A stretch of 64,000 nt of DNA, from contig RSEH01000029.1 of assembly GCA_006503475.1 (NCBI GenBank), positions 148,119 through 212,118 of the forward strand. Direction: 5' to 3'. The notes under the pieces are model-generated. The model saw only the letters and a list, made by a program, of their open reading frames with translations, did not search any database and was not told the origin of the DNA. The position numbers and the translations under genes were made by a program. Origin of the DNA: Stentor roeselii. Lineage: Eukaryota > Ciliophora > Heterotrichea > Heterotrichida > Stentoridae. Shown piece by piece: positions 2,536-61,742 of this stretch (the first letter of the stretch is position 1; every line of letters begins with the position of its first letter).

Positions 2536-2548
2536 TTATTACACAATC
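2536..2548. promoter_or_regulatory. 13-bp spacer between two divergent start codons
   Basis: Only 13 bp separate the ATG of the minus-strand importin (2535) from the first ATG of the plus-strand gene (2549). Both 5' UTRs and any core promoter must lie in this spacer or overlap the opposite coding sequence. I see no separate promoter motif. Confidence 0.4.
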
Positions 2549-13334: not shown

Positions 13335-14936
13335 ATGCCAAAGGGAAAAGTTTCTCTAGACACTTGGCTGACATCAATAGGTAAATTCTACTCAGTTTCT
13401 TTGCCATCCTCCGATCTAGAAGAATTTCTTAAAAGAAACACCCTAGATGCAAATATCTTAAAAAAAAAATCAATCATATGTCCGAACTTTTCTCAAGATT
13501 TCAAAATATCACACTCATCAATGTTAACAAAGATCTTCACAAGTTCCCTATTCCACCCTAACACCCTAGTAAAAAAAAAGACATTAAAAAACCTTTTCAA
13601 GTACCTTTCAAACCTTTTAAAAGAATTCCAAATCGACTCACTAACCCTTCCTTGTTTTCAGCTCGAATCAGACATCTGGAAAAGTTTAGACCCAATATTT
13701 TTAAAACCTTTTCTAAAGTACTTCAAAACAACAATCACCAGATCAGAGTAATTTTTAAAAAGTGTAAAAATTTACGCTGCCGAGCTTTTGTTAAACGAAT
13801 CTAAATCAAAAGCGATTCAATACGGGTTAATTTTTTCCTTTCTGGTAAGTTCCAGTCAGTCCTTCCTAGAAAAACTCTTCGACTTGAAACTCGACCCAAA
13901 TCTTCAAATCGCTCTTCAAACCGAGCAAGAGAAAAAAAAGCGAAAAGTCATTCCAGAAGAAGCGATTCATAGAAGTTTAAATTTTCACATCTGGAAAGAC
14001 GATATCTGCATATACCAACTCATAGAGATCTTTTACAAAGAACCTCCAATCATGGCAATGATAGTCGAGATACTCTCAGAAGCACCTCCAAGTCGAAAGC
14101 ACAGATGGAAGCTGGGCATCGCTAGTTTCATCCTTCATCGATTCCCTGAAGTAGAAGTTTCTGACAAGGTAAAATCAAAACTTCACTCAGTCCCTGCCCG
14201 AAGATGCGCAGGAACCTTTAAAGACTTTGGACCTTTAAATGTCTTAAATGAACTGAAACTTTCTATTGAAGAGTCGCAAGTGATTTTCATTGATTCTGTA
14301 AAAATTTTGGAAAATGTTCAGGTCCCAGGTGGTTTTATTGGCCTTGACTCGGAGTGGAGGTCGAATATTTTCCAGAATCGAGATAATCCTGTCTCTATTC
14401 TTCAAGTTGCATTTGAGGACAGGGTTCTCATCATTGACCTCCTCGCCCTCAATAAAGAACCTGCACTTGATACTTTCCTTTCACAGTTATTCGAAGGAAA
14501 TTCAATAAAAATAGGAGTTTCTTTTGATGAAGATCTGGTAAAAATAAAAAAACATTATCCTCATTTAAAAGCTGCTCAAAAAAAAATCGAGAAATTAGTG
14601 GATTTAATTGAAGCTTATAAAAGAGTTTATTTGGAAGCACCTGGAGGACTTGCTGGTCTTTGCTACAAGACTCTAGGAATGAGACTTAGTAAATATGAAC
14701 AAAGGTCAAACTGGGAAAATAGACCTTTAAGAAGGTCACAATTGCATTATGCAGCTCTTGACGCTTTTGTGCAAATAGAAATTTTTCGTAAAATTTCTGA
14801 AAGTTCCGGAATTCCAGTTCAAGACTTCTTCGAGCCTTTCACGGGAAAATCATCTAAAGGTAGTAAATTCGAAGATGTGAAAAGATGCAAGATTTGTTTC
14901 AAAGATGACCACATTGAAGAAAACTGCAGATTTTAA
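13335..14936 (+). CDS. DEDDy 3'-5' exonuclease (EXD3/Mut-7-like) with CCHC knuckle
   Basis: The spliced product is 523 residues after removing introns at 13381-13395 and 13748-13762. Exo I is intact (IGLDSEWR), Exo II is IGVSFDEDLVKI, and Exo III is LHYAALDAF (Tyr and Asp present). The C-terminus carries a zinc knuckle, CKIC-x4-H-x4-C. The domain order resembles the Mut-7/EXD3 group, known in animals for trimming small-RNA 3' ends with Argonautes; a similar role here is inference only. Paralogues lie at 7938 (dead) and 9600 (decayed). The start is fixed by the paralogue sharing L-D-x-W-L-x-x-I just before intron 1. The stop is 29 bp from the stop of the convergent gene. Confidence 0.85.
13381..13395 (+). 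other. 15-nt intron 1 of the active exonuclease gene
   Basis: GTAAATTCTACTCAG. It has no in-frame stop but the position and phase equal the frame-breaking intron at 7984 in the paralogue. It ends CAG. Confidence 0.78.
13748..13762 (+). other. 15-nt intron 2 of the active exonuclease gene
   Basis: GTAATTTTTAAAAAG contains the TAA that would end the frame. Splicing joins TITRS to DVKIYAAELL and continues the alignment with the paralogue. Confidence 0.82.
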
Positions 14937-40480: not shown

Positions 40481-41860
40481 ATGGTGATTTTCATTCTGAT
40501 GTTCACCAGCGCACTTGCTGGGGTCAAAGTCAAAGTCGTGGAACCCCCTGATCTGAAAAATTCACTTCCAAACAACGGAGTTTTAACTTCCACCCTCGCG
40601 AACTTCGGCAACCCGCCCTACGGAAGCTACATCCTTGGAAGGGTCCACAAGTACCCTGGCAAGGTCAAGGGCGGCTGCTCGGCGCTGGACCCTGTCAAGT
40701 TCGAAGACGAGACCAACACTTACAGCCACCCGATTCTCCTTCTTGACAGAGGCAACTGCTCCTTCGTCGTCAAAGCTCGTCATGCTCAGTCTATTGGGGC
40801 TCAGGCACTCATTATTATTGACAACTCAGATGAAAACGTCAATAAAATCGTTATGGTTGATGACGGCACTGCAGGAAATATTTTCATTCCAACCATGATG
40901 ATTTCCAAAGCGGACGGAGAAGTTATTAAAAATTTCATCAGCGCTCATCATAATAAACATGTCAGAATGCAACTGAGCTTCGATGTGCCCAACCCTGACA
41001 ACCGCGTCGAGTATGAATTTTGGATGTCTCCTGAAAACCATGAGTTGCAGGTCTTTTTGGCGGATTTCGCCAAACATGCGAAAGCGCTGAAAGACAAAAC
41101 GTTTTTCGTTCCTCATTTCGGGATCTGGTACTCGGTTGAAAGACAACGGGAAGGGTTCAAAACTAAGCATAAGGACTGTCTTGGCGCTGGCAGGTACTGC
41201 GCCTTTGACCCTGACTATAACGGCGATAAGAATGGAGGCGATATAATGAGAGAAGTCCTTAGACAAATCTGCATTTTTTCTGAGATTCATCATCAAGACG
41301 CTCATAATAACCCGAATTTGAAGACTATTTGGTGGGATTATGTTTCGCAGTATCATAAATGTGACCTGCTTGATGAAGACTGCAGTAAAAGGATCATTAA
41401 AAGCATCGGAATTAAACAGACTGAAGTTGATCAGTGCTTTCAAGCATCGGTTGATGGGAAGAATATTGAAATGGATCCTAATTATTTGCTTGAGAATGAG
41501 AGGAAACTTATGAAAGAACGTGGCGCTTGGTTCTTTCCTACCATTTTTATCAATGGAGTACCTTATCGTGGAGACTTGGAAGCTGATGAAGTACTTAAGA
41601 TGATTTGTGCTGGGTTCAAAAAACAGCCTCAATACTGTGTCGAGTACTTCGACCAGAAAGAGGGCAAAAAGAGTGAGGAAGGAATCAGCGCAGGAACTGT
41701 ACTTCTTATCATGTTCTTCGCGTTGGTCGCTTTTCTGGTTATTTTGTTCTTTTATAGGAAGTGGCTCAGAAGAGACATGAATTATAGGATGAAGGCGGAA
41801 GTCAGTGCGGCTGTTAATCAATATATTGCTCTTACAGACCAAAGTTTGAACAGAGATTAG
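40481..41860 (+). CDS. Plant-type vacuolar sorting receptor-like protein (459 aa)
   Basis: A signal peptide (MVIFILMFTSALAG) is followed by a PA domain (about 40-160; PILLLDRGNCSFVVKARHAQ), a Cys-containing middle domain with FFVPHFGIWYS and WFFPTIFINGVPYRG, a membrane segment (TVLLIMFFALVAFLVILFFY), and a cytosolic tail ending QYIALTDQ. The YIAL motif (YxxPhi) sits where plant VSRs have YMPL, the clathrin/AP sorting signal. Family role: carrying hydrolases from Golgi/TGN to lysosome-like or vacuolar compartments. The last 160 bp plus downstream DNA have been duplicated into 44444-44822. Confidence 0.88.
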   Translation: MVIFILMFTSALAGVKVKVVEPPDLKNSLPNNGVLTSTLANFGNPPYGSYILGRVHKYPGKVKGGCSALDPVKFEDETNTYSHPILLLDRGNCSFVVKARHAQSIGAQALIIIDNSDENVNKIVMVDDGTAGNIFIPTMMISKADGEVIKNFISAHHNKHVRMQLSFDVPNPDNRVEYEFWMSPENHELQVFLADFAKHAKALKDKTFFVPHFGIWYSVERQREGFKTKHKDCLGAGRYCAFDPDYNGDKNGGDIMREVLRQICIFSEIHHQDAHNNPNLKTIWWDYVSQYHKCDLLDEDCSKRIIKSIGIKQTEVDQCFQASVDGKNIEMDPNYLLENERKLMKERGAWFFPTIFINGVPYRGDLEADEVLKMICAGFKKQPQYCVEYFDQKEGKKSEEGISAGTVLLIMFFALVAFLVILFFYRKWLRRDMNYRMKAEVSAAVNQYIALTDQSLNRD

Positions 41861-42510
41861 TTAATTAGATTATTATTGAAATTTTGAAAATATTAGAAAG
41901 AATAGATCCAGAAAATTTGGATTTTTTGGATAGATGAATGAAATAAAGAACTATTCACATTTCTTTTAATAAATTCACGAGGTATTAATTATTATTGAAG
42001 ATTTTAAAAATGAAATTGCATATATTATTTATGCATTTTAGTTAAATTTTAAAAAATGTTTGAGAGTTTTCCAAGTTTTATATAGTTTTGATTATCTCAA
42101 AAGATTTCTGATCATTATTAAAGTTGGTACATTTTTTAGGTTCATTAAAGTTGGGTATAGATATATTAGGTTAATTTATCTTGATCATTATATTTAAACA
42201 ACAATTTAAATTTTGTATTTCTCGTAAGTTTAAGTTGGTTACAATTTAATTGAATTATTAGAATCATTAAATGATTTGAGCATAAATCAAAACTTGAATC
42301 AGAACATATTTCATTTTATACATTTATTTGTAGACAAAAATATGTAGGCTAATTAATAAAATTATAGACAAATATAAAAAGAATCGATTTCTTCAATATA
42401 ATCAGAGGTTTCTTTCCCGAATAGAGTACTTCTTTAATTTTTCAAGTTATAGTTTCCAAAAACAATATCCAATTATCTGGATTAGATATTTTTCATTTTC
42501 TTATAAAAAT
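41861..42510. other. Duplicated AT-rich spacer with the 5' flank of metalloprotease copy A
   Basis: This very AT-rich sequence belongs to the duplication: 41861-42095 matches 44588-44822 and 42096-42510 matches 46459-46873 nearly base for base. No gene of its own was seen. The strong conservation of the last 400 bp between copies includes the likely promoter. Confidence 0.6.
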
Positions 42511-44355
42511 ATGTATTGTGATATGTTGGAACTAGTAAAGAGTCTTCTCGATTCCAAAAACTACAAAGATTTTTGTACAGAGCATCTCTCTGAAATCCAG
42601 AGTCATTCAAATGAAACTTCTTTAAAAAATCATAGCCCATATAACATTAAAAAGGCTGAAATAATTATATGTTCAATAGAATGCCTAGAATTGAATGCTA
42701 AAGACTTCGGACTGATTCTTGATTCAGTAATTGTGCTACAAAAACACTCTCGCATAAGTTTTTCCCAACAAGAGATTGATTCTTTCTTGAAAAATTTGAT
42801 TTTTTTTAAAGTTAATAGTTTCGGGGGTGAATACTTTGACATCAATAAAGAGAGACAATGCTTTGAAATGTTATATACCTATTTTAAAAAAAATCCTCAA
42901 GTACGTAAAATAATATTGAAAATTAAATATATATTATCCAATGTGAGTGATCTTATTCAAGAAATCGGACAAGGAGATTTTGAAGGCGTTCACAGAAATA
43001 TGAAGATTATAAATAATTTAGAAAGAGATATAAAATCAGGTTTATTGGTTAAAATTGAAGCTTTATTAATGAATAAAATTAAAAAATTTCCTGAAAACAA
43101 ACAACTTATAGAAACAATAGAATTAATCAATGAAATCGAAGGCATAAGAAACCAATACCCTTTAAGCTTAAAACTATGCACTGAAATCAACCATTTGTTT
43201 CCAAACTTTTTATGTCAGGAATCGGTGAACATAAATTTATGCTCTTCAATTATAAGAAATTTTATAAATAATTACAACGAAGAAATCCAAACAAAGTCTC
43301 AACAGTATTTACAGTTTTCAATTGAAGATGATAATATGGATCAGTACGATATTCTCTGCTTGAGACTTCTTTATAATTTACTTAGCTCTCATGACATTAT
43401 TACATCAATTTTCAGTAGTGAATTGAATTATAAAAAGGCCACCCAATATTTTAACCCATTGAACATGTTGATAAGTATTTCCAGATATCCTAAAAATATT
43501 CAATTATTCTTACTTCACTCAATCGACTATGATAAAGATACAGAAAAACAGCTAAAATATATAACTTTATTAGAAGAAAAACCTCTTTTTTCATTTTGCC
43601 TAAGTGATAAAAATGACTGGAGAGACTCATTTATTGAATCTGTTTTTGAAGAACCTTATTACGGATATTTTAGAGAAATTTATAAATTTCATAGAAATAA
43701 ACAGGAACCATTTATTGATGATGATTTTAAAAGTAAATTAGCACATCTCATAAGTTCGACTACAATTATAGAAGTTCCGGACTATATTTCTGGTATAACT
43801 CTCAGAAATCTTTCGATTTTTATAAAATACTATAGTAATGCTAAGACTGCAAAAGGATGCACTTTTTACACTTTGATTCATGAACTTAGCCATGCTGTAA
43901 GAAGAATAGATTGCTTAACATATGAAAAAACTGCAGAAAATCTTAGCAATAGTGAAAAATTTTTAATTTTTTCTGAATACAGTTTTAATAAGGAATTGAG
44001 GTACAGATTTACAGGGTGTATATCAAATAGAAAAAGTACCCGTAAGATTAATAAAGAAATTGAAGACAACTCTCGTAAGTTTGTTGTATTGAATGAAGAA
44101 TTAGAAGGAGGAAGAAGTACTGAAAAAGTTCTATTCGGAGAGTGTTTTAATGATCTTAATGAAAGTGCAGCAGAATTTTTGTTATCATGCAAGGGTTTAT
44201 CAATTTTAGAATTTCAAAAAATATTAAAAGAAAAAAACAACTCTTTTCCAAATGAGTCAAGAGATAAACTTAGAATGAGAGTTGATCAAAGGTCTAAACT
44301 TGGAGGGTGTGGATCTGATTTCGCAAGATGGTCTAAAGAATTTTTAGGTAAGTAA
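42511..44355 (+). CDS. HExxH metalloprotease-like protein, copy A (614 aa)
   Basis: I do not recognise this family beyond its zinc site. Residues 457-461 read HELSH (HExxH) in TFYTLIHELSHAVRR, and 94 residues on Glu551 lies in LNESAAEFLL, a spacing and NE-x-x-x-[DE] form typical of gluzincin third ligands (thermolysin-like). The N-terminal 400 residues are helical with no signal peptide or membrane segment, so action in the cytosol or nucleus is likely. The partner at 46874 is nearly identical. The ATG at 42511 is conserved in both copies. Codon use is far more AT-rich than in the first 42 kb. Confidence 0.78.
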   Translation: MYCDMLELVKSLLDSKNYKDFCTEHLSEIQSHSNETSLKNHSPYNIKKAEIIICSIECLELNAKDFGLILDSVIVLQKHSRISFSQQEIDSFLKNLIFFKVNSFGGEYFDINKERQCFEMLYTYFKKNPQVRKIILKIKYILSNVSDLIQEIGQGDFEGVHRNMKIINNLERDIKSGLLVKIEALLMNKIKKFPENKQLIETIELINEIEGIRNQYPLSLKLCTEINHLFPNFLCQESVNINLCSSIIRNFINNYNEEIQTKSQQYLQFSIEDDNMDQYDILCLRLLYNLLSSHDIITSIFSSELNYKKATQYFNPLNMLISISRYPKNIQLFLLHSIDYDKDTEKQLKYITLLEEKPLFSFCLSDKNDWRDSFIESVFEEPYYGYFREIYKFHRNKQEPFIDDDFKSKLAHLISSTTIIEVPDYISGITLRNLSIFIKYYSNAKTAKGCTFYTLIHELSHAVRRIDCLTYEKTAENLSNSEKFLIFSEYSFNKELRYRFTGCISNRKSTRKINKEIEDNSRKFVVLNEELEGGRSTEKVLFGECFNDLNESAAEFLLSCKGLSILEFQKILKEKNNSFPNESRDKLRMRVDQRSKLGGCGSDFARWSKEFLGK

Positions 44356-44443
44356 TTTTTTATTAATTAAGATTTTGTTATACCTTAGTGAAAGTTATCC
44401 AAGAATTGTTGGAAATTGAACAATGAAGTACAAAGCATTACTT

Positions 44444-44587
44444 ACTTCTTATCATGTTCTTCGCGTTGGTTGCTTTTCTGGTTATTTTGTTCTTTTATAG
44501 GAAGTGGCTCAGAAGAGATATGAATTATAGAATGAAGGCGGAAGTCAATATATTGCTCTTACAGACCAAAGTTTGAACAGAGATTAG
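44444..44587 (+). pseudogene. Duplicated 3' tail of the sorting-receptor gene
   Basis: It matches 41701-41860 (the end of the membrane segment and cytosolic tail). A 16-bp deletion removes the segment just before YIAL and breaks the frame, although the terminal TAG is retained. No upstream receptor sequence is present, so it is a dead fragment. Confidence 0.85.
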
Positions 44588-45044
44588 TTAATTAGATGAT
44601 TATTGAAATTTTGAAAATATTAGAAAGATAAGATCCAGAAATTTTGAATTTTTTGGATAGATGAATGAAATGAAGGACTATTCGCATTTATTTTAATAAA
44701 TTCACGAGGTATTAATTATTATTGAGGATTTTAAAAATGAAATTGCATATATTATTTATGCATTTAAGTTAAATTCTAAAAATTTTTAGGGTTTTCCAAG
44801 GTGTTTTATAGTTTTGATTATTTTTAAAAAAAAATCCACATTTTACTAAATCAAAGCACTTAAAATCCGAGATAAGAATATGCTGATGGGAGAATGAGCA
44901 TCAAATGAGATGTCTACTAAAACAATTTTTAGCTGATCGAATTACAAATTTCCCCTGTATTCAAGCTACTCTGAATGTAATAAATTCATATTTAATATAT
45001 TGAATATCTGTAATAGATTAATTTCTACAATTTTCAAGTTATAA

Positions 45045-46334
45045 ATGTCTGCTCAATGCTTTGTTTTAGGATGCTATGAAAGGCCTGTATCTGGTTGCTG
45101 CTGTTCAGCTTTAATCTTTATGTGTGATTATCACACGTCTAATCACCTCTATTCATATGGAAAGCATATTCCGAAAAGACTTATTTATGAAAGCTCAAAT
45201 AGCAATCACATCCTTATAGATTCGCATGAAGCCAGAATAAAATTACTTAGAGTAAGTATCATTTCGGAAAAACTTCACACGAGTATTAAGATTAAGCAAC
45301 TTCTTGAAGAAAAGAATAGCAAGATTAAAGGATTTAAAAGAGAGATATATAATTTAAATGAGAATCTAAAAATGTTAACCAGTTTTAAAAACCAAAGAAA
45401 TGATAAAATTTCTTTACTGCCAAAAAATCGTCACAAGTAAAAGCTGATGTTTTTCAATCAGCTAGCCGTAAAGATTCATTATTTATTAAAACTCAATCAA
45501 TGACAACATTCATAAAATCAGCCAAAGATGATAGAGGACTTGATACAAACTTTGGTATAAAAACATGCAAGATTCTACAAAGACCAACTACTAATGACGA
45601 CAATTACATAATTATTTTCAACTCTTATCTTGGGAAAACGGTTCAAACTATTGATTTAGATAATTTTGAGAGAAAAAACATTGATTTGAAGATAAATGAA
45701 ATAGTGAATAACTGCTTATGTTGCAAGGTAGGTGAAAATAAGTACTTTGTCTACGGAGGTTACAGTCCTTATCTTTCATCTTGAACATAATTGATATTGA
45801 AAAAAAAACAACTGAATCTCTTCCTTCTCATAATGAAATGAGTCATGTTGGAGGATGCTTTTTTCAGGGAGAAGTCTATGTTTTTGGTGGAAAGTTTCAC
45901 AGAGCTACAGCAGAATGTAAGAAGTTCAATTTGAAGCAAAAGATTAGGAATAATATTCAAATACTTCCTGAAATTAGTCACTGCACAAGTGCATTTTCTT
46001 CAAACAACACTATCTATATCACTGGCTATCATCTCTCAAAGATTCTGACTTATTTCTCAAAAACGATAGATATTCACAGCTTGATTTCGAGATCAAGGGA
46101 AATTGTTACAAATATCTCATTGAAAACTGGCTTGTTTGCTTTGAAAATTTTTTATTTGAAATCAGTGAAGATGAAATTTTGATTAAGAGACAATGTATTA
46201 GTGAATATGCGAATTGTTTGAACTCTTCAGCTTATTTTAAGAGAGGAAGGTTTATTTATTTTGTTCATATGGTGCCAAAAATTTATCGAATTTGTACTCA
46301 GGACAAGAAAATTGCATTGATTAATTTAAATTAG
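45045..46334 (+). pseudogene. Frameshifted B-box-like / kelch gene
   Basis: ATG at 45045 (TATAAATG context) begins a zinc array C5-x4-C10 and CCC with DYH-x3-H like the intact paralogues at 5887 and 53397. The frame is then broken three times: in an A-run near 45427, near 45768 (after YGGYSP), and near 46120. Joined in three frames, the remainder gives kelch blades (YFVYGGYSP; VYVFGGKFH) and an end ALINLN at TAG 46332-46334. Each shift is in the same direction (consistent with a 1-nt loss) and the three sum to one codon. None fits a 15-16 nt intron. Confidence 0.7.
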
Positions 46335-46873
46335 GATAAATAAATGATGTTTCTGATTGTTTCATATCTAAAATAATTTGAGTAGCTTAGCTTTGAACCA
46401 AGAATCAATTTACTTTAAGTGATCATATGCAGATTTATTTTGAAAGAAGAATTCTAAACTCAAAAGATTTCTGATGATTATTAAAGTTGGTAAATATATA
46501 AGGTTCATTAAAGTTGGGTATAGATATATTAGGTTAATTAATCTTGATCATTATATTTAAACAACAATTTAAATTTTTTATTTCTCGTAAGTTTAAGTTG
46601 ATTACAATTTAATTGAATTATTAGAATCACTAAATGATTTGAGCATAAATCAAAACTTGAATCAGAACATATTTCATTTTATACATTTATTTGTAGACAA
46701 AAATATCTAGGCTAATTGATAAAATTATAGACAAATATAAAAAAAATCGATTTCTTCAATAACATTAGAAGTTTCTTTCCCGAATAGAGTGCTTCTTTAA
46801 TTTTTCAAGTTATAATTACCAAAAACAATATCAAATTATCTGGATTAGATATTTTTCATTTTCTTATAAAAAT

Positions 46874-48706
46874 ATGTATTCCGATATATTGGAACTAGTA
46901 AAGAGTCTTCTCGATTCCAAAAACTACAAAGATTTTTGTACAGAGCATCTCTCTGAAATCCAGAGTCATTCAAATGAAGCTTCTTTAAAAAATCATAGCC
47001 CATATAGCATTAAAAAGGCTGAAATAATTATATGTTCAATAGAATGCCTAGAATTGAATGCTAAAGACTTCGGACTGATTCTTGATTCAGTAATTGTACT
47101 ACAAAATCACTCTCGCATAAGTTTTTCCCAACAAGAGATTGATTCTTTCTTGAAAAATTTGATTTTTTTTAAAGTTAATAGTTTCGGGGGTGAATACTTT
47201 GACATTAATAAAGAGAGACAATGCTTCGAAATGTTATATACCGGTTTAAAAAAAAATCCTCAAGTACGTAAAATAATATTGAAAATTAAATATATATTAT
47301 CCAATGTGATTACTTTTATTCAAGAAATGGAACAAGGAGATTTTGAAGGCGTTCACAGAAATATGAAGATTATAAATAATTTAGAAAGAGATATAAAATC
47401 AGGTTTATTGGTTAAAATTGAAGCTTTATTAATGAATAAAATTAAAAAATTTCCTGAAAACAAACAACTTATAGAAACAATAGAATTAATCAATGAAATC
47501 GAAGGCATAAGAAACCAATACCCTTTAAGCTTAAAACTATGCACTGAAATCAACCATTTGTTTCCAAACTTTTTATGTCAGGAATCGGTGAACATAAATT
47601 TATGCTCTTCAATTATAAGAAATTTTATAAATAATTACAACGAAGAAATCCAAACAAAGTCTCAACAGTATTTACAGTTTTCAATTGAAGATGATAATAT
47701 GGATCAGTACGATATTCTCTGCTTGAGACTTCTTTATAATTTACTTAGCTCTCATGACATTATTACATCAATTTTCAGTAGTGAATTGAATTATAAAAAG
47801 GCCACCCAATATTTTAACCCATTGAACATGTTGATAAGTATTTCCAGATATCCTAAAAATATTCAATTATTCTTACTTCACTCAATCGACTATGATAAAG
47901 ATACAGAAAAACAGCTAAAATATATAACTTTATTAGAAGAAAAACCTCTTTTTTCATTTTGCCTAAGTGATAAAAATGACTGGAGAGACTCATTTATTGA
48001 ATCTGTTTTTGAAGAACCTTATTACGGATATTTTAGAGAAATTTATAAATTTCATAGAAATAAACAGGAACCATTTATTGATGATGATTTTAAAAGTAAA
48101 TTAGCACATCTCATAAGTTCGACTACAATTATAGAAGTTCCGGACTATATTACTGGTATAACTCTCAGAAGTCTTTCGATTTTTGTAAAATACTATAGTA
48201 ATGCTAAGACTGCAAAAGGATGCACTTTTTACACTTTGATTCATGAACTTAGCCATGCTGTAAGAAGAATAGATTGCTTAACATATGAAAAGGCAGAAAA
48301 TCTTAGAAATAGTGAAAAATTTTTAATTTTTTCTGAATACAGTTTTAATAAGGAATTGAGGTACAGATTTACAGGGTGTATATCAAATAGAAAAAGTACA
48401 CGTGAGATTAATAAGGAAATTGAAGACTCTTCTCGTGAGTTTGCAGTATTGAATGAAGAGTTACAAGAAGGAAGAAGTACTGAAAAAGTTCTATTCGGAG
48501 AGTGTTTTAATGATCTTAATGAAAGTGCAGCAGAATTTTTGTTATCGTGCAAGGGTTTATCAATTTTAGAATTTCAAAAAATATTAAAAGAAAAAAACAA
48601 CTCTTTTCCAAATGAGTCAAGAGGAAAACTTAGAGTTAGCATCAATAAACTTGTACAGTGTGGATCTAATTTTGCAAGATGGTCTAAAGAATTTTTAGGT
48701 AAGTAA
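46874..48706 (+). CDS. HExxH metalloprotease-like protein, copy B (610 aa)
   Basis: It is nearly identical to copy A, with HELSH and NESAAEFLL intact. Differences cluster in the first 150 residues, in a short region after the zinc helix (loss of one codon; KSTRE versus KSTRK) and at the C-terminus (VSINKLVQCGSNF versus MRVDQRSKLGGCGSDF). The middle 820 bp (47332-48151) appear identical to copy A even at silent positions. Both copies have open frames and the same start, so both are probably functional. The duplicated upstream 400 bp implies similar regulation. Confidence 0.78.
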   Translation: MYSDILELVKSLLDSKNYKDFCTEHLSEIQSHSNEASLKNHSPYSIKKAEIIICSIECLELNAKDFGLILDSVIVLQNHSRISFSQQEIDSFLKNLIFFKVNSFGGEYFDINKERQCFEMLYTGLKKNPQVRKIILKIKYILSNVITFIQEMEQGDFEGVHRNMKIINNLERDIKSGLLVKIEALLMNKIKKFPENKQLIETIELINEIEGIRNQYPLSLKLCTEINHLFPNFLCQESVNINLCSSIIRNFINNYNEEIQTKSQQYLQFSIEDDNMDQYDILCLRLLYNLLSSHDIITSIFSSELNYKKATQYFNPLNMLISISRYPKNIQLFLLHSIDYDKDTEKQLKYITLLEEKPLFSFCLSDKNDWRDSFIESVFEEPYYGYFREIYKFHRNKQEPFIDDDFKSKLAHLISSTTIIEVPDYITGITLRSLSIFVKYYSNAKTAKGCTFYTLIHELSHAVRRIDCLTYEKAENLRNSEKFLIFSEYSFNKELRYRFTGCISNRKSTREINKEIEDSSREFAVLNEELQEGRSTEKVLFGECFNDLNESAAEFLLSCKGLSILEFQKILKEKNNSFPNESRGKLRVSINKLVQCGSNFARWSKEFLGK

Positions 48707-48780
48707 TTTATTATTAATTAGGATTTTATATCTTAGAGAAAGAAATCGAAGAATTGTTGGAAATTTAACAATGAAGTACC

Positions 48781-49852
48781 AGACATTTTCGTCTAAATGA
48801 AGGAATTTGCGATAAAATATAAAGAAATTGAAGAAAACAGATCCTAAATCATTAATTTAAATTTTTCGTTGTGAAAGAAAAACTTTGAAAATTGGAACTT
48901 TGATCAAACTAGTGAAAACATTTATTTCAAAGGTTATTGGCTTTGAAAAAGGATTATATTGAAAAATCCTTGCAGTAAGCACGAAATATCTATTTTTATT
49001 GATAATTTTATTTAAAAGAGGTTTTATCGCACATAAGTTATTTTGTAGGCCAATAATAAAAACCTCAAGAATTGGTCGAGCATATTTTCTCACAATGGTG
49101 GGTTCATCAACTAGTAATAAACTGACTTTTTTATCATTAAGAGATATGCAAGGCTGTTTAAATTAGAGAAGTCTGCTTTAAATGTGATTTAATTATTCAG
49201 ATAGTTCTATACTATGACCGATTGAGTTTTAGGAAATATTGAAGATTAGAATAAAAAATCACAGCACTAAACAAAATTACATAGTTCAACCTGAATATAA
49301 TATTAACTTGCAATCGTAGCTCCAAAATTAAGAATTTCAGCTCAAGATGCTCTTAGCCATTAATCTATTTAGCAAAGTACCAAAAATAGTTCATCCATAA
49401 GTAGCAAAAAATATCATTACAGCACTTTGCATTAAACAATGATAGCAACCCTGAGTACTGTGGAACATCCTATCGAGAGGTTCATATTGTAAATATTGAA
49501 AGGATGATATCAGTCAAATTTTCTTCTAAAAATCTCGTTCTATAAATTCGTCAAATATTTACCCAAATAATCATAAGAATTCTTATTAATTGTTATTTCT
49601 TAGTTGATTTAATAACTTTTATAAGTCAAGATTGTCAACTAATAAAGAATTTATCTATAGAACATTAATAATTCATTTTGAATGAGAAAAGGAGAAAATT
49701 TTTAAATAAGTTAACTTTTCTTATTTTAATATCAAGTTTTAAATTTCAAAATTCTTACAATAAACATTTTATTCTTACTAATTAAGGGTTATTTAAGATA
49801 GCCAGTTCTAAATTTAAGTGATAATAAAACAAAATCTTTAAATCGTTATTAA
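48781..49852. other. AT-rich spacer
   Basis: About 1.07 kb with stops throughout all frames. A 78-codon frame on the minus strand (48857-49093) has no paralogue or motif and looks like chance. No repeat or RNA gene noticed. Confidence 0.5.
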
Positions 49853-51818
49853 TCATAAAATCAAATCTTCTTTTGTCAATCTAAACTCTCTTTTTGTATT
49901 CATATATTTTAGTCCTTTCAACCTTTCTATTTTTACCTCCTTTTCTTCTTTTGTCGTATTCAATATACTAAAACCTGAATAAGTACCTTTCAAAACTATA
50001 TAATCAACACATCTGAACCAAAATAATTGATAACTAAGAAAATGACTGATTTTCCTCATAATTTTTAAGTTATTCCAAACAAACACATCACATGCATCAT
50101 CCATGAAAAGAAAACAATTCTTTCTAAACTTTCCAACCTTTATTTGTCTATTGTGAGTCAATAAAATCTTTGAATTTCTTAAATCTTGTACAATTGATTT
50201 TTCATTTTCAATCATATCACTCGAATAGCACATCACTTCCCAATTTGTTCTTACAAATCGAACTGGAAAAACTCCAAAAAAATACTTTTTCTTTATTTCC
50301 AAACAATCAGTTTCAACACAATAAATAAGTCCATTCCCAGTTCCACACAAAATAACTGTATTTTCAAATACTAAATATAAAACTGTACTTTCAAATGACC
50401 TGCAACAAATATGAGATTTCGAACTCAGACTATATAAGTAAACTCTTCCAAAACCAAAAACAATCAGCTTCAGTTTGATAGAAATTGAGAAATTGAATGA
50501 ATCTATTATTGTCTGGTTTGTTGTTTTTATTGTTTTTTGAGATGAAAGATCGAAACATTCAATGTTTTTCAATACAGCACTTGAATAGAGTTTATTTTTG
50601 AGTAGTTTTACACATAAAACTGGTTGTTTGAAATGATCAAGTACTATTAAAAGTGAAAACGAGGATAAACTCCACACTTTTATAGTGCGATCTTGAGATC
50701 CTGAAACAAATTTTGCAGTTTTTAAGCAGGTGTCTATTGAATTTATTGGTTTTGAATGTGCTTTGAAAGTTTTGAAGAGTTGAAATTGTTTTAAAACTTG
50801 AATAAATCCATCTTCATGCCCAGTTATTAAAGTATCAGTTTCTTCTATAAGACTACTACACTTTAGTTGTTTTCTATATTGTTTGATGATAAAAGGAGAC
50901 TTATGTTCAAGTTTGAACTTTTGAATGGATCCTTGATAGGTTGAGCAGATGAAAAACTGATCATTTTGGACGAATCTTGCAAACATAACTGTGGAATTAG
51001 AATTAATTTGAAATACCAAAGTAATTTTAAAAATTCTCCAAATTTGATACATCCTTGTTGTGATCCACTTAAAAAGTATTGAGAGTTTACCGAAATCATC
51101 AAAGAGAAGATTGGCCCATTAAAAGTTTTTAAGTATTTTTTGAGTTTTTTTGTTTTCAAATCGAAAAGACATATTGTTGAATCGAAGGAACCAGTGATGC
51201 ATAAATTTGATTTTATATCAATTGCTTTTACACTTGATTCATTATAAGTGAAAGATGCAATTTGATTAAAACTCTCAAGACTAAATATTCTGACAGTTCC
51301 ACATTCGCTTCCGACCACAATTACTTTTAGATTTTCTTCTATCGAAATTGAAAATGTTCGAGACATATGAGTCTTTAAAAAGAGAGTGAAACTCTTATGA
51401 ATATTTTTTTTGAGATATTTGAAGTATGTTATTTCTTTAATACACTCTCGATCAAATAGTAATTTTATCTGCTTAAAAAGAACTAAATATTTTGAATTTT
51501 CATAAGTTGAGTTTCTGAGAGATATTATTGATCTATTTAATGCTTTATTATTTCTTTTAATTATTCTAATTGTATAATTTTTAAGCACGAATATAAGACA
51601 CAGAAATTTAGGTAAAGTTGAATGTTTGATGACTTTATAAATTTAATTCTTTTTTTAGTATTAGCTTGGGTGTTTTGATTTACTATTTTATTTTTTTTAA
51701 CTTCTGAAACAATATGATTTAGTGGATTCAGTATATGAGCTCTTAATTCCGAAGATTTTATAGTTTTTTCTTGACAAATACATTTATAGACCTTTTTATC
51801 GAATATCACCTTGATCAT
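49853..51818 (-). pseudogene. WD40-repeat gene with two frameshifts
   Basis: Three overlapping minus-strand frames form one protein. The first (from ATG 51818) carries a C-x-C...H-x-x-x-x-x-x-H cluster (KCICQEKTIKSSELRAHILN). The second has WD40 blades (GSECGTVRIFSLES, TGSFDSTICLFDLKT, SGSQQGCIK). The third continues with IWRIF and SGSQDRTIKVWSL. The joins lie near 51570 and 51055; the latter is a missing A in ATCAAATTTGG where IKIW would need one more A. Both shifts are consistent with single-base losses. WD40 propellers are interaction platforms; no specific partner is evident. Assembly error is possible. Confidence 0.7.
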
Positions 51819-53396: not shown

Positions 53397-54671
53397 ATGA
53401 AGTGCTTTCAGAGTGGTTGTAATACGAGCCCTAACTTTTTCTGTACATGTCGAAAGAAAATAGAATACTGTTGCAGTTTCCATATGGCTTATCATCTAGG
53501 CCAGCCAGGAGATAAAAAACACAAGTTTTTTTCAACCCTTAAAAATTTGGATGCTAGTAATAGAGTTCCCATCATTGAAAAGCTTAAAGAGTCAATCTCT
53601 GAATTCAAGCAACTAAAAATCAAAGTCTTCGAAATTTCAATTGCCTTCACCACCTTAACCATTGAGTGTGTAAAAAAACTAGATGAAATCATTAATTATA
53701 ACAAAAGGTTGCTAAAAGATTCAATATCATATAGTCAAATCAACATCACAGTTTCATATAATAAAAAATACCGAGAAAATAACCTTAGTCTTGAAATGCT
53801 TCAGCTTAATAAAAAAGAACAATTTAAAGGCATAAACTTCGATGCATTCATTATAAATGTTAATAATTTCCAAAATTTACTGAAGAACACTCAAGAAAAA
53901 TTTGTCAAACCTTATAATGATACTTTTTTATATTACTTCATAGATAATACCAAATGTTTGGTAAAGTTCAATACAAAAATTTATTCCCATTTCAAGAAAA
54001 AAATTAATGATATTCAGCGTGTTGGAAGAAGAGCATCTGTATACTGTTTAAATGATGGGAATATATTTTGCTATGGTGGTGGCCACGAAAAATCAATATC
54101 ATCTACTTTTTACGTTAATCAAAATACTTTTACTGTGACTCGTTTACCAAATGGCAAAAGCAGGCATAGTGCGAGACCTGTTATATTAAGAGATAGAATT
54201 TACGTTTTCGGAGGATGGAGTGACAAGTGCTTGAATTCGGCTGATTATTTTGATATTAAGGCTGAGAAATGGACTGAAGTAGCCCAATTGCCAAGTCCTC
54301 AATCGGATACCAGCTCAATAAAAATCAAATCCGAAATAATAATCACAGGTTGCTATAATTTCTTTCAATCTTATAGCGTAGATCTAAATCAATATAAAGA
54401 TCTTAAGTCAGGAATCAAAATCAACAGCAATAACATTTTATTAAAAAATAAAGATTTTATCTTCGTTCTTTGCAAAAAGATTTACTATTGCAAAAAGACG
54501 AAACTAAAAAATTGGATCAGCCATCCTTGTAAAACTTTATCCTTTGATATGAATAGTTCTATACCTGTTATAAGAGACAATAAGGCTTATTTCATTGATG
54601 AGGATTATCGAATCTTCATGTTTAATTTTGATGATTTGAGCTTCATTATTATTGGCAAAGGAAAAATTTAG
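53397..54671 (+). CDS. B-box-like zinc-finger / kelch-repeat protein (424 aa)
   Basis: The N-terminal array C3-x4-C8-x7-C16-x-C18-x6-C25-x3-H29-x3-H33-x8-H42 matches the gene at 5887. A helical linker (about 50-190) and a propeller follow, with kelch blades NIFCYGGGHEKS (about 221-232) and RIYVFGGWSDKCLNSADYFD (about 266-285), each with the GG and downstream Tyr/Trp. The frame is intact, unlike the copy at 45045. Composition is AT-rich like its surroundings. Possible role: adaptor binding partners through the propeller; no enzymatic motif seen. Confidence 0.78.
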   Translation: MKCFQSGCNTSPNFFCTCRKKIEYCCSFHMAYHLGQPGDKKHKFFSTLKNLDASNRVPIIEKLKESISEFKQLKIKVFEISIAFTTLTIECVKKLDEIINYNKRLLKDSISYSQINITVSYNKKYRENNLSLEMLQLNKKEQFKGINFDAFIINVNNFQNLLKNTQEKFVKPYNDTFLYYFIDNTKCLVKFNTKIYSHFKKKINDIQRVGRRASVYCLNDGNIFCYGGGHEKSISSTFYVNQNTFTVTRLPNGKSRHSARPVILRDRIYVFGGWSDKCLNSADYFDIKAEKWTEVAQLPSPQSDTSSIKIKSEIIITGCYNFFQSYSVDLNQYKDLKSGIKINSNNILLKNKDFIFVLCKKIYYCKKTKLKNWISHPCKTLSFDMNSSIPVIRDNKAYFIDEDYRIFMFNFDDLSFIIIGKGKI

Positions 54672-56492: not shown

Positions 56493-59400
56493 ATGTTGTT
56501 AAGCCTGGCATTCTTCATCTCTGTCTTCCATAAAACAAAGAGTGAATTTCAGTGCCCGTTTCCTTCTTGCACAAAACAAAAGCTAGGAAACAATGAATGT
56601 GATCATATATGTAACAACATTCTGTGTAATTTCGATTCATATGCAGATTCAGATGGTCTTTCCAATTCCGAACTGTTCAGCGCATCTGATTGTCTTGTTT
56701 TCTGCATGTTCAGAGGCTGCACAATGGACCTTCTAACCAATGACCATTGCGACGAGGTCTGCAACAACAAAGACTGCGCATACGACCTTGGCCTTTGCGG
56801 GGTATGCGCCAATGGGTGCTTCGAGGAAGAACTTTTAAACCAGAAGTGTGACAGAGACGGCCCTTGTTACACTTCAAACTGCGAATATGACGCTGAAGAG
56901 TGTAACTTTTGTGTCGATGGATGCGGAAAGACTGATATTTCAAAAGAAAATTGCGAAAATGACTTATGCAGGAATGAATTGTGTGAAGATATACTTGGAA
57001 ATCATTGCTTTGATTACTGTGACAAAGGATGCTTAAGGTCGCAGGTCGCTGATGGGAACTGCGATGAGAAATGCTATACTGAGTTGTGTGGATATGATGG
57101 AGGGGACTGCGACTGCTCTCTTGGATGCAATTATCAGGAAATGATCGCAGATTGTAGAGGAGAGTTTGACTCTTGCAATAATTTGCAGTGTAATTATAAG
57201 GATTTTACTTGTGTTGATTACCAATGTGCGCCTGGATGTTATGTTGGCATGCTTTTGAATGGGTATTGTGATGAACAATGCTTAACGTTTGAGTGCAAAT
57301 TTGATCGTGGATATTGTGAGTGTTCCGCATTCTGTAGTATGTATTTAAAAGGTAATTATTTTATTACGTATGCTGAAATACAAAATGTTGAAGATTGCTA
57401 CTCGCCTGGATGTTGGTATAACATTCAAGACCAGCCTGATAATTTCACAAGAAGATCAATAATATTGAGCATCTTTCTTGCTTTTGACTATAGTTTTTTC
57501 AATGTAGACAACCTTCCAGAAGGCTGTAGTGTTTCCGATCTTCAAAAATACGACTCTCTAGACGGTGAAAAATGTGATATAACTTCTCCATGCTACTCAA
57601 AAGAGGCACTATGGTGCATGGGTCGCAGTAACAACGACATACAAAACTGTTTAAGATCCTCAAATGAAACATGCGGAATATGTGATGGTGTTTTTGTCGA
57701 CCATGAATGCGTTGACACTTTGACCTCATGTCCAGATGAGTATTCCGAGATCAAAAACCTGACAGATTTATTTTCGATAGACTCCTCAACTTTCATTTGG
57801 TGTGAACAAGATCCTTGGAACGTTTACCCTCCTATAACTGAAATCTATGTGAATTCAAGTGTTCAGCCGATACTTTTAGGAGACGGATCCAAGGAAAACC
57901 CATTCCTTTCTTTATATCAAGCGCTTCGGACGGTTTCTAGTACAAATACTCGAATCATTCTTTATCCAGGGGATTTTATTTATCAGTGCGATGAACTTTT
58001 TTTGAATGAAAGTAAAAACGGTCCTTTGAATTCAGAGGGTCTTGAAACCCTCATCATTGAAGGCTTGGATCCTCAGAACCCTTCAGTTATTTTTTGGTCT
58101 CAAGAAAATTACGAGACTTTAGACTATCTTCCTATTAAATGGGCAGGAAAAGAAATCATTTTAAAGAACCTGGAATTTAACGGAATAAATATTTTAGAGC
58201 CAACTAACAGCAAACTTAGCGAAGAAGGGTATGATGAATATTGTCCGAGCTTTCATATTTTCGCCTATACAAACCACAGCAAATTTATTTCCACAGATAA
58301 AAACAATATCATAAAAAAAAACCTTTTTTTCACTGCCATTAATAAAATGTACGAATGCTTGAGATATGAAGAATATATTTTCTTCCAGTTTAACGGAGTT
58401 GCAACTTTAAAAAATGTCACGTTCAGAAACTTTCGCAATCAGTTCAAGGTTTTCATTCAGTCTTCTCGCGATTTATTACTTCAAAATGTGAATTTCTTTA
58501 AAATGCAACCAAGTAGCTATGGAGTGGTTATTGAAGTGTTACATATTGATGGATATGTTGACTTCGTTTTTAATGAAGGCAGAGTTGAAGACTTAAACTC
58601 GGGGTATAATATTAATGATGATTTGAAAACTGGAGGATTTTTAAAAGCCACGAGTATAACCACTGTTAAAATTACTGGAGTTGAATTTAATTTTAATCTG
58701 GTGTATAGTAGCACTGAATCACTTCTTAATTCTGCATTAATCAGAGTCAATAGAATTACTGGAAAGTTTTTTATTGATAACTGCACGTTCAGTAATATGT
58801 ATCTCAACTCTTTGATTGATTTTGATGCGTCAGGCATGGCCTATGATGATTTTATTGACATTACAGAACTTGATATTATTCAGTTTCAACAGATTTATTT
58901 TCAATTATCTAATTCAAATTTTGAAAGTATTTACACATCTACTTATTTTATCAGACTTATGTCTGATACAATTTCTCAAAATATAAAAATTTTTGATAAT
59001 TCTTTCGAATCAGTCTGCTCAGCCGGGTCATCTATAATTTCCTTGATTTATAATGGAATATTAAAGAAAATTGATACAGTTGGAGATTATGTGAGAGTTA
59101 CTTCAAATGAACATTTAATATATCTACCTCAAAGAACACTAGAATTATATCGTATGAATTTTTTAAATGTCTCTTCCGGAGAATATGTCATTTACATCAA
59201 AGGAAGCCCAAATGTGAGTGTAAAGCAAATAAAAATAGATAAACTTTTAGATGGAAATCGAGACACAATATCTTTAATAATTGGCAACTTCAAAATAAAA
59301 GATAAATATTTATCAATTATCCCAAGATCAGACCAAATTGGGGATTTAAAATGTTCTGGTTCAATTAAGGTCATCGAATCATACAATGTGAACTTTGAGG

Positions 59401-61742
59401 AAACTTTCGTTAAAAAAAGTCATTGTTCAAGTGATTCTCCTCATTCAGGTCTTATCTTTGAGTCAATCACTGGAAGTTTGAATCTAACTTCAGCAAGTTT
59501 TTTGAATATAAATTCCTCTAATGCCGCAGCTAGTTTACTATCATTTACCAGTATTGCCTGCCCGATAAAAATTCAAAGTATTTACATGAGTCAGATCAAT
59601 AATTCTGCAGGAAGCATCATCGAGTTCTACAGATGCTCGATAATCAACATCAGCAATTTTGAATCATATGATTTTATTGTTAAAAATTCAGCTTTGATTT
59701 CAGTATCAGATTTCAAATTATTTACTATGAAAGACACCATTTCGAACTCAATTAAAAATTTCTACGGAACTTCTGGGTTTTTAATGCTAATTGTTTCTAG
59801 TAATATCCAATCAACAATAAACATTAAAAATACTAAGATTGAGGATTTAGATGTGATTGGCGGTGACTCAGGGCTTTTTATGATCGAGTCATTCAGTGGG
59901 TCGCAGGCTCACAACATTTATATCCAAAATGTAAGTTTCAAGGAAATTTCAGCTTCCCGTGGAGTTTTTCTATATTTATCTAAAAAACTGTCTATAAATG
60001 ACTCTTTGATATCAGAGATTAGAGGAAGCAATAACAGAAATTCAATCTCCATGATTTACGACTCTCATACTAATGGAATTTTAAAGATTTCTGATGTTAA
60101 GTTTGTTGAAAATGAATTTATTTTTTATCCTGGAATTTTAACTGAATATCAAGGCTCTGGACTCCAGCTTGAATTGAATGACTTTGTGGTTTCGAACAGC
60201 TCAAAGGCTGATGTTGTTTTTCAATTCACAGGAAAAAATTTAGATCAGATTTATTTAAAGGCCTCAAATGTCTTAGTGAGTAATATTTCTATTTATCTTG
60301 GTAGTGGCTTTGCGAGAACTATGAAAGTTGATGGAGTTAATTTGACTGTTGATGGACTCAATGTTAGCTTGATGAGCACAACGGCTGAAATTCTCAATGG
60401 AGCCCTTGAAATAAAAAACGGTAATTTTCATTATTTAACTGATTATATGATAAAATCTCAAGATAGAGGAGCTTTTATATGCAGTTCTTGCAATGTTTAC
60501 AATAACTCTGGAACTTTATTCAGTATAAGTGGAGGAAGTTTTATAATTCTCAATGAATCTAAAATTTTCAATAATGTTTATTCAGGATCAAAAGGCATTA
60601 TATTTGAAATAGATTCGTCAGGTATGAAAAGAAATCTTGTTAAAAAAACAATCATTAGAGACAACATATCATTTAACAGTAAATTAATAGAATTAACAAA
60701 CACAAAATTAGATATGATTGATTCAGTTTATGTAGAAAACTATGCAGAAACATCGACTTTTTCTGGAATAATGACTTATGGAACTGATTTATCCATAAAA
60801 AATACAACATTTTCTGTCAACAAAGGAAAACCGGTTGGGTCTTTAATATATTCAGCTTTATATGGAAATCTATCTCTAATAAATTCTCAGTTTTTTGATA
60901 GTCATTCTGAAATTACTGGCGGCATTTTAACAGTAGATGAGTGTATAGGTCTATATATATCGGGTTGCATTTTCAAAAATAATACTTCTATCAACAAAGG
61001 AGGAGCTATTAAATCAACAAAAACTCCAACTAGAATAATTGATTCTATCTTTGAAGGAAACAGTGCTTTAGAAGGGTCTGATTTGCACCTTTCAGAAAGT
61101 GAAGTTTTAGTGGTAAACTCAAGTTTTATCAAATCAAAATCAAAATCATTAAGCCAACAATTTTCTCTGTTTATTTCAGGAGGAAATATAACCCTTGATT
61201 GTGTAACTATCAGTGATCTCGAAAATTACATCTCAGGACTTTATAGTGAGAATCTTAATCAAATTATGATTACAGGCAGCATTTTTTCTAATATTTCAGG
61301 AAAAGAATTTGGAGCCAGCTACTTTACAGGAGGCAAAACAAATGGCAGGGTAGTTATAAATAATTCAGTCTTCAAAAACAACTTTTCATTCAGAAATGGA
61401 GGAGGCTTGTGTCTGAGGAATATGAAACTAATTGTGAATGATTCGATTTTTATATATAATGAAGTTGATGAAGATGGCGGAGGGATTTATTTTGAAGCGC
61501 CTGATTGCATTAGTTGCAATTTCGATATTTTAGGAAGGACTGATATTCAACATAATGTTGCTAAGAGAAATGGAGGAGGAATCAGATGGTTGAACTTTAA
61601 GCCGAATATTGGGAATTATACTGTCATTGAAAATAACTCTGCAGATTATGGAAATAATATTGCAGGCATGCCTGCTTATTTAGGACTATCGGGAAGGTTA
61701 TTGATTAAAGTGAATGCCAGCGATGAAAGTATTTCAGAATAA
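56493..61742 (+). CDS. Giant secreted LNR / beta-helix surface protein (1749 aa)
   Basis: A signal peptide (MLLSLAFFISVFHKTKSEF) is followed by about 280 residues of Cys-rich Lin-12/Notch-type repeats (e.g. CDEVCNNKDCAYDLGLC, CDEKCYTELCGYDGGDC: C-x3-C-x3-C-x4-D...C). A second Cys cluster (about 335-415) leads to a long parallel beta-helix of Asn/Ser/Ile-rich coils (about 450-1735). The last part has POMP-like turns (GGAI with F-x-x-N; NGGGL, DGGGIYF, NGGGIRW). No membrane anchor is seen at the C-terminus, although comparable ciliate surface proteins usually have one, so it is secreted, or truncated at the TAA. Possible role in cell surface recognition, adhesion or matrix. Confidence 0.8.
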   Translation: MLLSLAFFISVFHKTKSEFQCPFPSCTKQKLGNNECDHICNNILCNFDSYADSDGLSNSELFSASDCLVFCMFRGCTMDLLTNDHCDEVCNNKDCAYDLGLCGVCANGCFEEELLNQKCDRDGPCYTSNCEYDAEECNFCVDGCGKTDISKENCENDLCRNELCEDILGNHCFDYCDKGCLRSQVADGNCDEKCYTELCGYDGGDCDCSLGCNYQEMIADCRGEFDSCNNLQCNYKDFTCVDYQCAPGCYVGMLLNGYCDEQCLTFECKFDRGYCECSAFCSMYLKGNYFITYAEIQNVEDCYSPGCWYNIQDQPDNFTRRSIILSIFLAFDYSFFNVDNLPEGCSVSDLQKYDSLDGEKCDITSPCYSKEALWCMGRSNNDIQNCLRSSNETCGICDGVFVDHECVDTLTSCPDEYSEIKNLTDLFSIDSSTFIWCEQDPWNVYPPITEIYVNSSVQPILLGDGSKENPFLSLYQALRTVSSTNTRIILYPGDFIYQCDELFLNESKNGPLNSEGLETLIIEGLDPQNPSVIFWSQENYETLDYLPIKWAGKEIILKNLEFNGINILEPTNSKLSEEGYDEYCPSFHIFAYTNHSKFISTDKNNIIKKNLFFTAINKMYECLRYEEYIFFQFNGVATLKNVTFRNFRNQFKVFIQSSRDLLLQNVNFFKMQPSSYGVVIEVLHIDGYVDFVFNEGRVEDLNSGYNINDDLKTGGFLKATSITTVKITGVEFNFNLVYSSTESLLNSALIRVNRITGKFFIDNCTFSNMYLNSLIDFDASGMAYDDFIDITELDIIQFQQIYFQLSNSNFESIYTSTYFIRLMSDTISQNIKIFDNSFESVCSAGSSIISLIYNGILKKIDTVGDYVRVTSNEHLIYLPQRTLELYRMNFLNVSSGEYVIYIKGSPNVSVKQIKIDKLLDGNRDTISLIIGNFKIKDKYLSIIPRSDQIGDLKCSGSIKVIESYNVNFEETFVKKSHCSSDSPHSGLIFESITGSLNLTSASFLNINSSNAAASLLSFTSIACPIKIQSIYMSQINNSAGSIIEFYRCSIINISNFESYDFIVKNSALISVSDFKLFTMKDTISNSIKNFYGTSGFLMLIVSSNIQSTINIKNTKIEDLDVIGGDSGLFMIESFSGSQAHNIYIQNVSFKEISASRGVFLYLSKKLSINDSLISEIRGSNNRNSISMIYDSHTNGILKISDVKFVENEFIFYPGILTEYQGSGLQLELNDFVVSNSSKADVVFQFTGKNLDQIYLKASNVLVSNISIYLGSGFARTMKVDGVNLTVDGLNVSLMSTTAEILNGALEIKNGNFHYLTDYMIKSQDRGAFICSSCNVYNNSGTLFSISGGSFIILNESKIFNNVYSGSKGIIFEIDSSGMKRNLVKKTIIRDNISFNSKLIELTNTKLDMIDSVYVENYAETSTFSGIMTYGTDLSIKNTTFSVNKGKPVGSLIYSALYGNLSLINSQFFDSHSEITGGILTVDECIGLYISGCIFKNNTSINKGGAIKSTKTPTRIIDSIFEGNSALEGSDLHLSESEVLVVNSSFIKSKSKSLSQQFSLFISGGNITLDCVTISDLENYISGLYSENLNQIMITGSIFSNISGKEFGASYFTGGKTNGRVVINNSVFKNNFSFRNGGGLCLRNMKLIVNDSIFIYNEVDEDGGGIYFEAPDCISCNFDILGRTDIQHNVAKRNGGGIRWLNFKPNIGNYTVIENNSADYGNNIAGMPAYLGLSGRLLIKVNASDESISE

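Follow-up and report, generated by a model that had tools for sequence, protein, structure and literature searches.

A large gene family of putative intracellular zincins concentrated towards contig ends in Stentor roeselii

Gluzincins and minigluzincins combine an HExxH motif with a conserved downstream Glu, and both features are also present in the protein family described here, two members of which lie in a 64,000-nucleotide stretch of Stentor roeselii contig RSEH01000029.1 (positions 148,119 to 212,118, the whole of the DNA analysed, hereafter the window). Proabylysin (PDB 4jiu), a minigluzincin, gave a weak and non-significant profile match around HELAH (E 0.15 and 0.21), spanning little beyond HExxH. 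Eukaryotic proteins of fungi with E-x-G...E-x(2)-LFG after HExxH would have the same motif order as the family.

The searched family libraries gave no match above cut-off for family members. The YgjP-like profile reached E 3.5e-5 at best, scoring 23.7 bits in one member (L031) and 15 in another (L074) against a Pfam cut-off of 26; it has HExxH in common with the family, and only about 50 residues at the profile end were matched. HExxH is also what the family has in common with SprT-like (1 of 18 members, E 0.017) and WLM (13.2 bits, under the Pfam cut-off of 26), both of which appeared as weak matches of single members. These weak matches, which stood among unrelated ones, may be due to HExxH alone. 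A literature search returned no title naming the zincin-like family among the matches listed.

Outside the genome, no relative was found in a set of 5.8 billion proteins, for which the best 7994-7995 word-sharing candidates were scored per search, and scans of viral contigs gave no family relative. The scan of prokaryote contigs found one place, in a gammaproteobacterial metagenome-assembled genome (L053), where a segment with Glu comes after HELVHYLQ (BLASTP E 1e-5, 60 columns). In a single hhalign comparison, L053 matched the family profile with a probability of 86% over the predicted strand and the HExxH helix, the alignment ending at HExxH-x(2). By eye, it differs from the family in having neither G-x(3)-E-x(3)-FG nor the family N-terminal part, and it carries a sub-threshold match to DUF6647. 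Judged on its sequence, L053 could with equal probability be a distant relative or an analogue.

The two window genes are found on the forward strand, at 42511..44355 (copy 1, 614 aa) and 46874..48706 (copy 2, 610 aa). The original prediction had described them as near-identical proteins of 610-614 aa, and both ORFs are indeed present, with 95% identity. The HELSH motif is encoded on the forward strand at 43879..43893 in copy 1 (H457-H461) and at 48242-48256 in copy 2, likewise from residue 457; the two His and the Glu of HExxH by which zincins are recognised are present in both copies. NESAAEFLL begins at residue 550 of the first copy and 549 of the second, and E551 of copy 1 (codon 44161..44163, forward strand) lies 94 residues after H457, exactly as had been noted when E551 was proposed as the third zinc ligand. 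The zincin-like domain is C-terminal (approximately residues 405-614 of copy 1), and the N-terminal part has no Pfam match. Searches of the window genes against Pfam, NCBIfam, PHROGs and PDB sequences gave no convincing match; DUF4344, a "putative metallopeptidase" (E 0.054-0.069), was rejected because its match falls at residues 194-267, outside HExxH. The expected lack of a signal peptide was borne out, as neither copy has a hydrophobic N-terminal stretch (within the first 40 aa, the top Kyte-Doolittle mean over 19 residues is -0.14 in copy 1 and -0.01 in copy 2).

About 61 places in the S. roeselii genome, fragments included, match the zincin-like family, so that the term "tandem pair", correct for the two neighbouring copies, understated the case. 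Family members are concentrated towards contig ends (n=40 placed for the test), and one family frame begins approximately 0.4 kb from telomere repeats. In one member (L066), a single ORF of 1326 aa encodes a WD40 propeller with the zincin-like domain behind it. In three others, the domain stands behind Pkinase-like regions (L028, E 2.6e-5; L056, E 6.8e-7; L058, E 0.024), all under the Pfam cut-off and in which neither HRD nor DFG is recognisable by eye.

We consider it probable that the window genes belong to a large family of intracellular zincins, undescribed and subtelomeric, that evolves by birth and death and whose activity would be proteolytic. The two genes would be recent tandem, partly gene-converted members of this expanded family, turning over near telomeres. 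The left duplication unit (41700..44442, forward strand) includes the tail of a PA/VSR-type gene, a spacer and copy 1; the right unit (44443..48790, forward strand) is approximately 1.6 kb longer because it contains a kelch-like piece upstream of copy 2. The repeat at 41700-42060 corresponds to 44443-44787 and that at 42096-42395 to 46459-46758, with a start-to-start spacing of 2743/2727 to the left of the kelch-like piece and 4363/4360 to its right.

The gene between the copies is a broken B-box-like/kelch gene (45045..46182, forward strand; ORFs of 131, 94 and 133 aa), with a kelch match under the Pfam cut-off and a weak resemblance to the kelch gene at 53397-54671. Downstream of copy 2, and convergent with it, lies a WD40 gene split over two frames (49853..51588, reverse strand), which is a member of a large WD40 family of the same genome (at least 64 places, with 66 of 1226 candidates scored). 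The claim that the surrounding genes decay is correct for these two genes and does not extend to the PA/VSR-type gene upstream of copy 1, which is intact. The case for the WD40 neighbour as a fixed partner is weak, since a WD40-family gene occurs within 3 kb at 4 of the 61 family places.

Conservation was assessed on 41 aligned members and 164 columns, the columns of E538 and E551 being scored in 38 members. E458 and R465 are invariant (41/41), while H457 is present in 38/41 members and H461 in 34/41. The ten most conserved columns are G428, E458, R465, G543, C600, G534, E538, F568, F542 and H457, and H461 ranks 15th. A conserved set of His, Glu, Arg and Gly residues of this kind is typical of a metal site, as in zincins. 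E538 belongs to the motif E-x-G-x(3)-E-x(3)-F/W-G and is kept in 37/38 members, the exception being L072, which has HELGH without E538. Together with HExxH-x(3)-R and a C-terminal Cys, this motif is, as far as seen, the family's own. In the window it reads GRSTEKVLFG, at 44110..44139 in copy 1 (G534, E538, F542 and G543; E538 codon at 44122-44124) and at 48470-48499 in copy 2, where E537 is the counterpart of E538, both on the forward strand. On these sequence patterns, E538 is the best candidate for the third ligand, and a gluzincin-type site with a third ligand other than E551 appears supported. In intact members, the zinc would be held by H457, H461 and E538; E458 would act as the general base, and R465 would have a role in structure or substrate binding. 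The C-terminal zincin domain may be the effector, and the variable N-terminal part (the region without Pfam match, the kinase-like region without catalytic motifs or the WD40 propeller) may choose or sense the target.

Selection on the family, as originally predicted, is evident from five older paralogue pairs, with dN/dS of 0.29-0.41, a sign of purifying selection; the value of 0.57 for the window pair is weak evidence of constraint. In four of the five older pairs dN/dS was also split by domain. The zincin part was lower than, or about equal to, the N-terminal part in three of them (0.09 vs 0.37, 0.22 vs 0.40 and 0.36 vs 0.37), and higher in the C258/C411 pair (0.35 vs 0.29). A copy lacking a zinc His is present in three of these four pairs, and the lowest value comes from the pair in which both copies are intact.

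Relatives lacking the motif, named beforehand as counter-evidence, do exist to a degree: 10/41 members are without a zinc His, and the nine of them in the tree lost it nine separate times, each on a tip beside intact relatives, so that the intact motif was held along the inner branches. Such losses, with E458 present in all 41 members, are unexpected for a plain protease family. They are consistent with a zincin fold that serves chiefly as a non-catalytic binding or regulatory module, in which loss of the zinc site is tolerated or selected. Coherently with this explanation, changes strike the His (3 at H457 and 7 at H461) rather than the Glu (0 at E458 and 1 at E538), with a binomial P of 0.012 that is post hoc and counts in the fragment L026 and the decaying L030; furthermore, the branch dN/dS of C411 (HELAY) is 0.32 vs 0.42 in its intact sister. 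However, the losses are limited to tips, and both His are present in 31/41 members. Moreover, C453 (HELAN) has a branch dN/dS of 1.31 and stops within its matches, and one C339 copy (HELAN) has 0.50, compared with 0.25 and 0.29 in their respective sisters, which suggests that part of the His losses are ordinary decay. We consider a chiefly non-catalytic module unlikely, and favour a family of intracellular zincins with recurrent losses.

A different reading, in which the family has another fold and function and HExxH is there by chance or for structural reasons, is quite improbable. The motif is short, no library match exceeded its cut-off, and the structure model, built from the two window copies only, had a pLDDT of only 34.6, too low for use; against this, H457, E458, H461, R465, G534, E538 and G543 all stand within the top 15 of 164 columns, among members whose identity reaches down to about 20%.

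A thermolysin-type gluzincin with E551 as third ligand, for which NESAAEFLL has a suitable spacing and form in each window copy, can be nearly discarded, since this column is Glu in only 2/38 members, both of them the window copies, and ranks 104th of 164, whereas E538 lies 13 residues upstream in 37/38. The thermolysin family (M4) was also rejected, as NES is not conserved and no Peptidase_M4 occurs among the Pfam/NCBIfam matches. The statement that both copies keep every zinc ligand consequently survives for HExxH and fails for E551, which is no family feature. Similarly, the idea of an undescribed gluzincin-like family holds in that this is an HExxH family unnamed in the searched libraries and probably gluzincin-like, with the proposed third ligand replaced.

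If intracellular zincins are the right reading, a heterotrich of the Stentor type, a model among ciliates, has a large lineage-specific zincin-type set left unnamed by Pfam, NCBIfam and PDB-sequence searches. With its birth and death near telomeres, its zinc His lost repeatedly in copies whose sisters are intact, and WD40 or kinase-like regions fused to the domain, it would make a clean case for studying pseudoprotease origins, and the family would open the question of the purpose of an intracellular zincin repertoire. One answer, by analogy with NLR-type genes of immunity or self-recognition and to which we give a low probability, is a fast-evolving subtelomeric receptor-effector repertoire of a unicellular eukaryote, in which a common zincin effector would be fused or adjacent to changing sensors (WD40, pseudokinase and N-terminal regions), and recurrent zinc-dead copies would act as decoys or regulators.

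Lastly, no excess of 15-nt GTA...TAG introns was seen in the window, nor by a splice-join test; inspection by eye shows two introns of 15 nt in the rhomboid gene.

The two open reading frames at 42511-44355 and 46874-48706 of the forward strand, read in the standard code, encode proteins of 614 and 610 aa, and their motifs are as the original prediction described them: HELSH at residue 457 in both copies, and NESAAEFLL at residue 550 in copy 1 and 549 in copy 2. Over the 610 codons compared, identity between the copies is 95.1% for the proteins and 97.3% for the DNA. Because their flanks are also common (41700-42060 is repeated at 44443-44787, 95%, and 42096-42395 at 46459-46758, 96%), the duplicated unit starts inside the tail of the PA/VSR-type gene upstream of copy 1 (Pfam VSR_TRX, E 5.6e-36, plus PA). 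The second unit is ~1.6 kb longer because of pieces of a B-box-like/kelch gene at 45045-46182; such genes recur in the window, at 53397-54671 and 5887-7191. The 49 differences in 1830 nt are unevenly distributed, with an 820-nt identical run from codon 153, a length reached in 0/20000 shuffles. The likely cause of this run is gene conversion; it may also be an assembly artefact.

The pair is real and its original interpretation partly supported, but to consider it by itself was too narrow: it belongs to a large family whose members lie preferentially near contig ends. Protein searches of the 44.4-Mb assembly (522 contigs), with family members and one kinase-zincin member as queries, gave 76 kept rows, repeats of a kept place and rows hitting the kinase-like part alone being excluded, which merged into 61 places on 54 contigs, including some fragments and some matches to the N-terminal part only. 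The median distance to the contig end was 0.14 of the half-length, against 0.5 expected (KS P 9e-7; the 40 of 61 places on contigs of known length), and on contigs of at least 60 kb, 21/28 places are no more than 20 kb from an end, against 8.7 expected. As contig ends may also mark assembly-breaking repeats, telomere-adjacent cases weigh more: the C40 member L034 (frame 449-2608) begins ~0.4 kb from telomere repeats, which run to base 75, and a member on C5 is ~3 kb away from such repeats. The unit, CCCTAACA, is known from heterotrichs; when doubled, it has 660 matches vs 0 for the reversed control. Among the ~100 matches listed, those on the contigs of known length C5, C9, and C40 sit at contig ends, as do those on C26, C48, and C56, which begin at most 8 bases from base 1. 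The window is the end part of its contig, C206 (212118 bases), and no telomere repeat was seen in its last 400 bases.

The domain alignment comprised 41 members out of the 61 places. The shortened members L026, L038, and L039 have no residues in its later columns, and the pieces L005, L023, L035, L042, L044, L052, L060, and L069 fall outside the count, although L052, L060, and L069 each display an HExxH. In copy 1 numbering, E458 and R465 are present in 41/41 members, G428 in 39/39, C600 in 38/38, G534 in 37/38, E538 in 37/38 (I in L072), F542 in 35/38 (W in three), and E532 in 33/38. E551, originally proposed as the third zinc ligand, is kept in 2/38 members and is therefore not the family's ligand. 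Judged by conservation alone, E538 is the best candidate. The spacer between HExxH and E538 is highly variable in length; at the extreme, one subfamily (e.g. L033, L034, L036, and L041) carries a long insert rich in Lys and Glu. The structure predicted from the two window copies had a pLDDT of 34.6, too low to inform on the fold.

The zinc ligands are repeatedly lost within the family. H457 is conserved in 38/41 members (R in two, Y in one) and H461 in 34/41 (N in three, Y in three, Q in one), so that 10/41 are without one or the other. On the tree of 36 members (the short L026, L038, L039, L046, and L062 were omitted), the nine His-less members included require nine changes (bootstrap 9-9), all of them on terminal branches, with no clustering of the His-less state (500/500 shuffles as low or lower). 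Changes at the zinc site number 10 for His and 1 for Glu (binomial P 0.012, post hoc and counting L026, a fragment, and L030, which is decaying). Long stop-to-stop frames are found in the His-less L014 (580 aa), L021 (598), L025 (595), L027 (572), and L036 (767). Branch dN/dS was computed by parsimony against an outgroup, and the His loss may fall anywhere along its branch: L014 has 0.32 (sister 0.42), and is thus a His-less copy without sign of relaxation; L021 has 0.50 (sister 0.29); L030, whose gene matches are interrupted by stops, has 1.31 (sister 0.25), and is thus decaying. An intact pair gave 0.35 and 0.44.

The selection originally proposed for the window copies is evident across the family, with dN/dS of 0.29-0.41 between paralogues, but weak for the window pair alone, at 0.57 (N-terminal part 0.78, zincin domain 0.50). 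The other pairs, named by contig, gave 0.31 for C258/C411 (N-terminal 0.29, zincin 0.35), 0.29 for C104/C53 (0.37 and 0.09), 0.33 for C339a/C339b (0.40 and 0.22), 0.38 for C168/C165 (0.37 and 0.36), and 0.41 for C339a/C168.

Among wholly scanned members, Pfam found nothing near cut-off in the N-terminal parts except in L028, L056, L058, and L066. The first three carry a Pkinase-like region, always below cut-off (E 2.6e-5, 6.8e-7, and 0.024, respectively), which looks like a pseudokinase because the HRD positions (by eye HGF, HGF, and HGS) and the DFG positions (NFF, NYF, and DLL, the last retaining the D) are altered. L066 (G000:C183:15300-19300, 2-3979) is one 1326-aa frame in which a long WD40-repeat region is followed by a terminal zincin domain. 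These kinase-like and WD40 fusions suggest an effector-plus-sensor reading of the family. WD40 genes form a family of their own in this genome, at no fewer than 64 places (at least), several beginning within ~30 bases of a contig start; a broken copy lies at 49853-51588 of the window.

The zincin part had nothing above curated cut-off in Pfam and NCBIfam; the best Pfam E value among the members scanned, 3.5e-5 to YgjP-like, came from one scan reported without bits. PHROGs gave a single weak match of no assigned function there (E 0.03), and the best PDB sequence matches were 21nr (E 0.04, one three-member profile) and 4cv5 (E 0.087, broad profile). No relatives outside the genome emerged from a 5.8-billion-protein set (best 7994-7995 candidates scored). 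Absence from other eukaryotes does not follow, since the eukaryote share of this set is unstated and the other collections searched, prokaryotic genomes and viral contigs, are silent on them. L053 (1672-2526), a 285-aa HExxH protein from a gammaproteobacterial MAG, has an N-terminal stretch resembling DUF3579 (E 1.4e-5). It has HELVHYLQ and a Glu segment in common with one member (BLASTP E 1e-5), and its alignment to the family profile spans the predicted strand and HExxH helix (hhalign probability 86%). Its likeness to the family may reflect a distant relationship or analogy.

As regards introns, PMC9505925 gives the standard code and introns of 15-16 nt for Stentor coeruleus. Two 15-nt introns, GTAAAGTTTAACTAG and GTAATCTCAAGTAAG, are visible by eye at 4860-5010, in a gene that by eye is rhomboid-like; numerical tests across the window found no excess of 15-nt introns. 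Taken together, the standard code, these two introns, and the CCCTAACA repeats suggest a heterotrich akin to Stentor. Among the other genes, 56493-61742 is a 1749-aa frame with a signal-like start, repeated Cys-rich stretches, and then a long repetitive-looking region, and 8133-9533 and 13788-14936 are related genes, 3'-5' exonuclease-like by eye, with a C-terminal C-x2-C-x4-H-x4-C.
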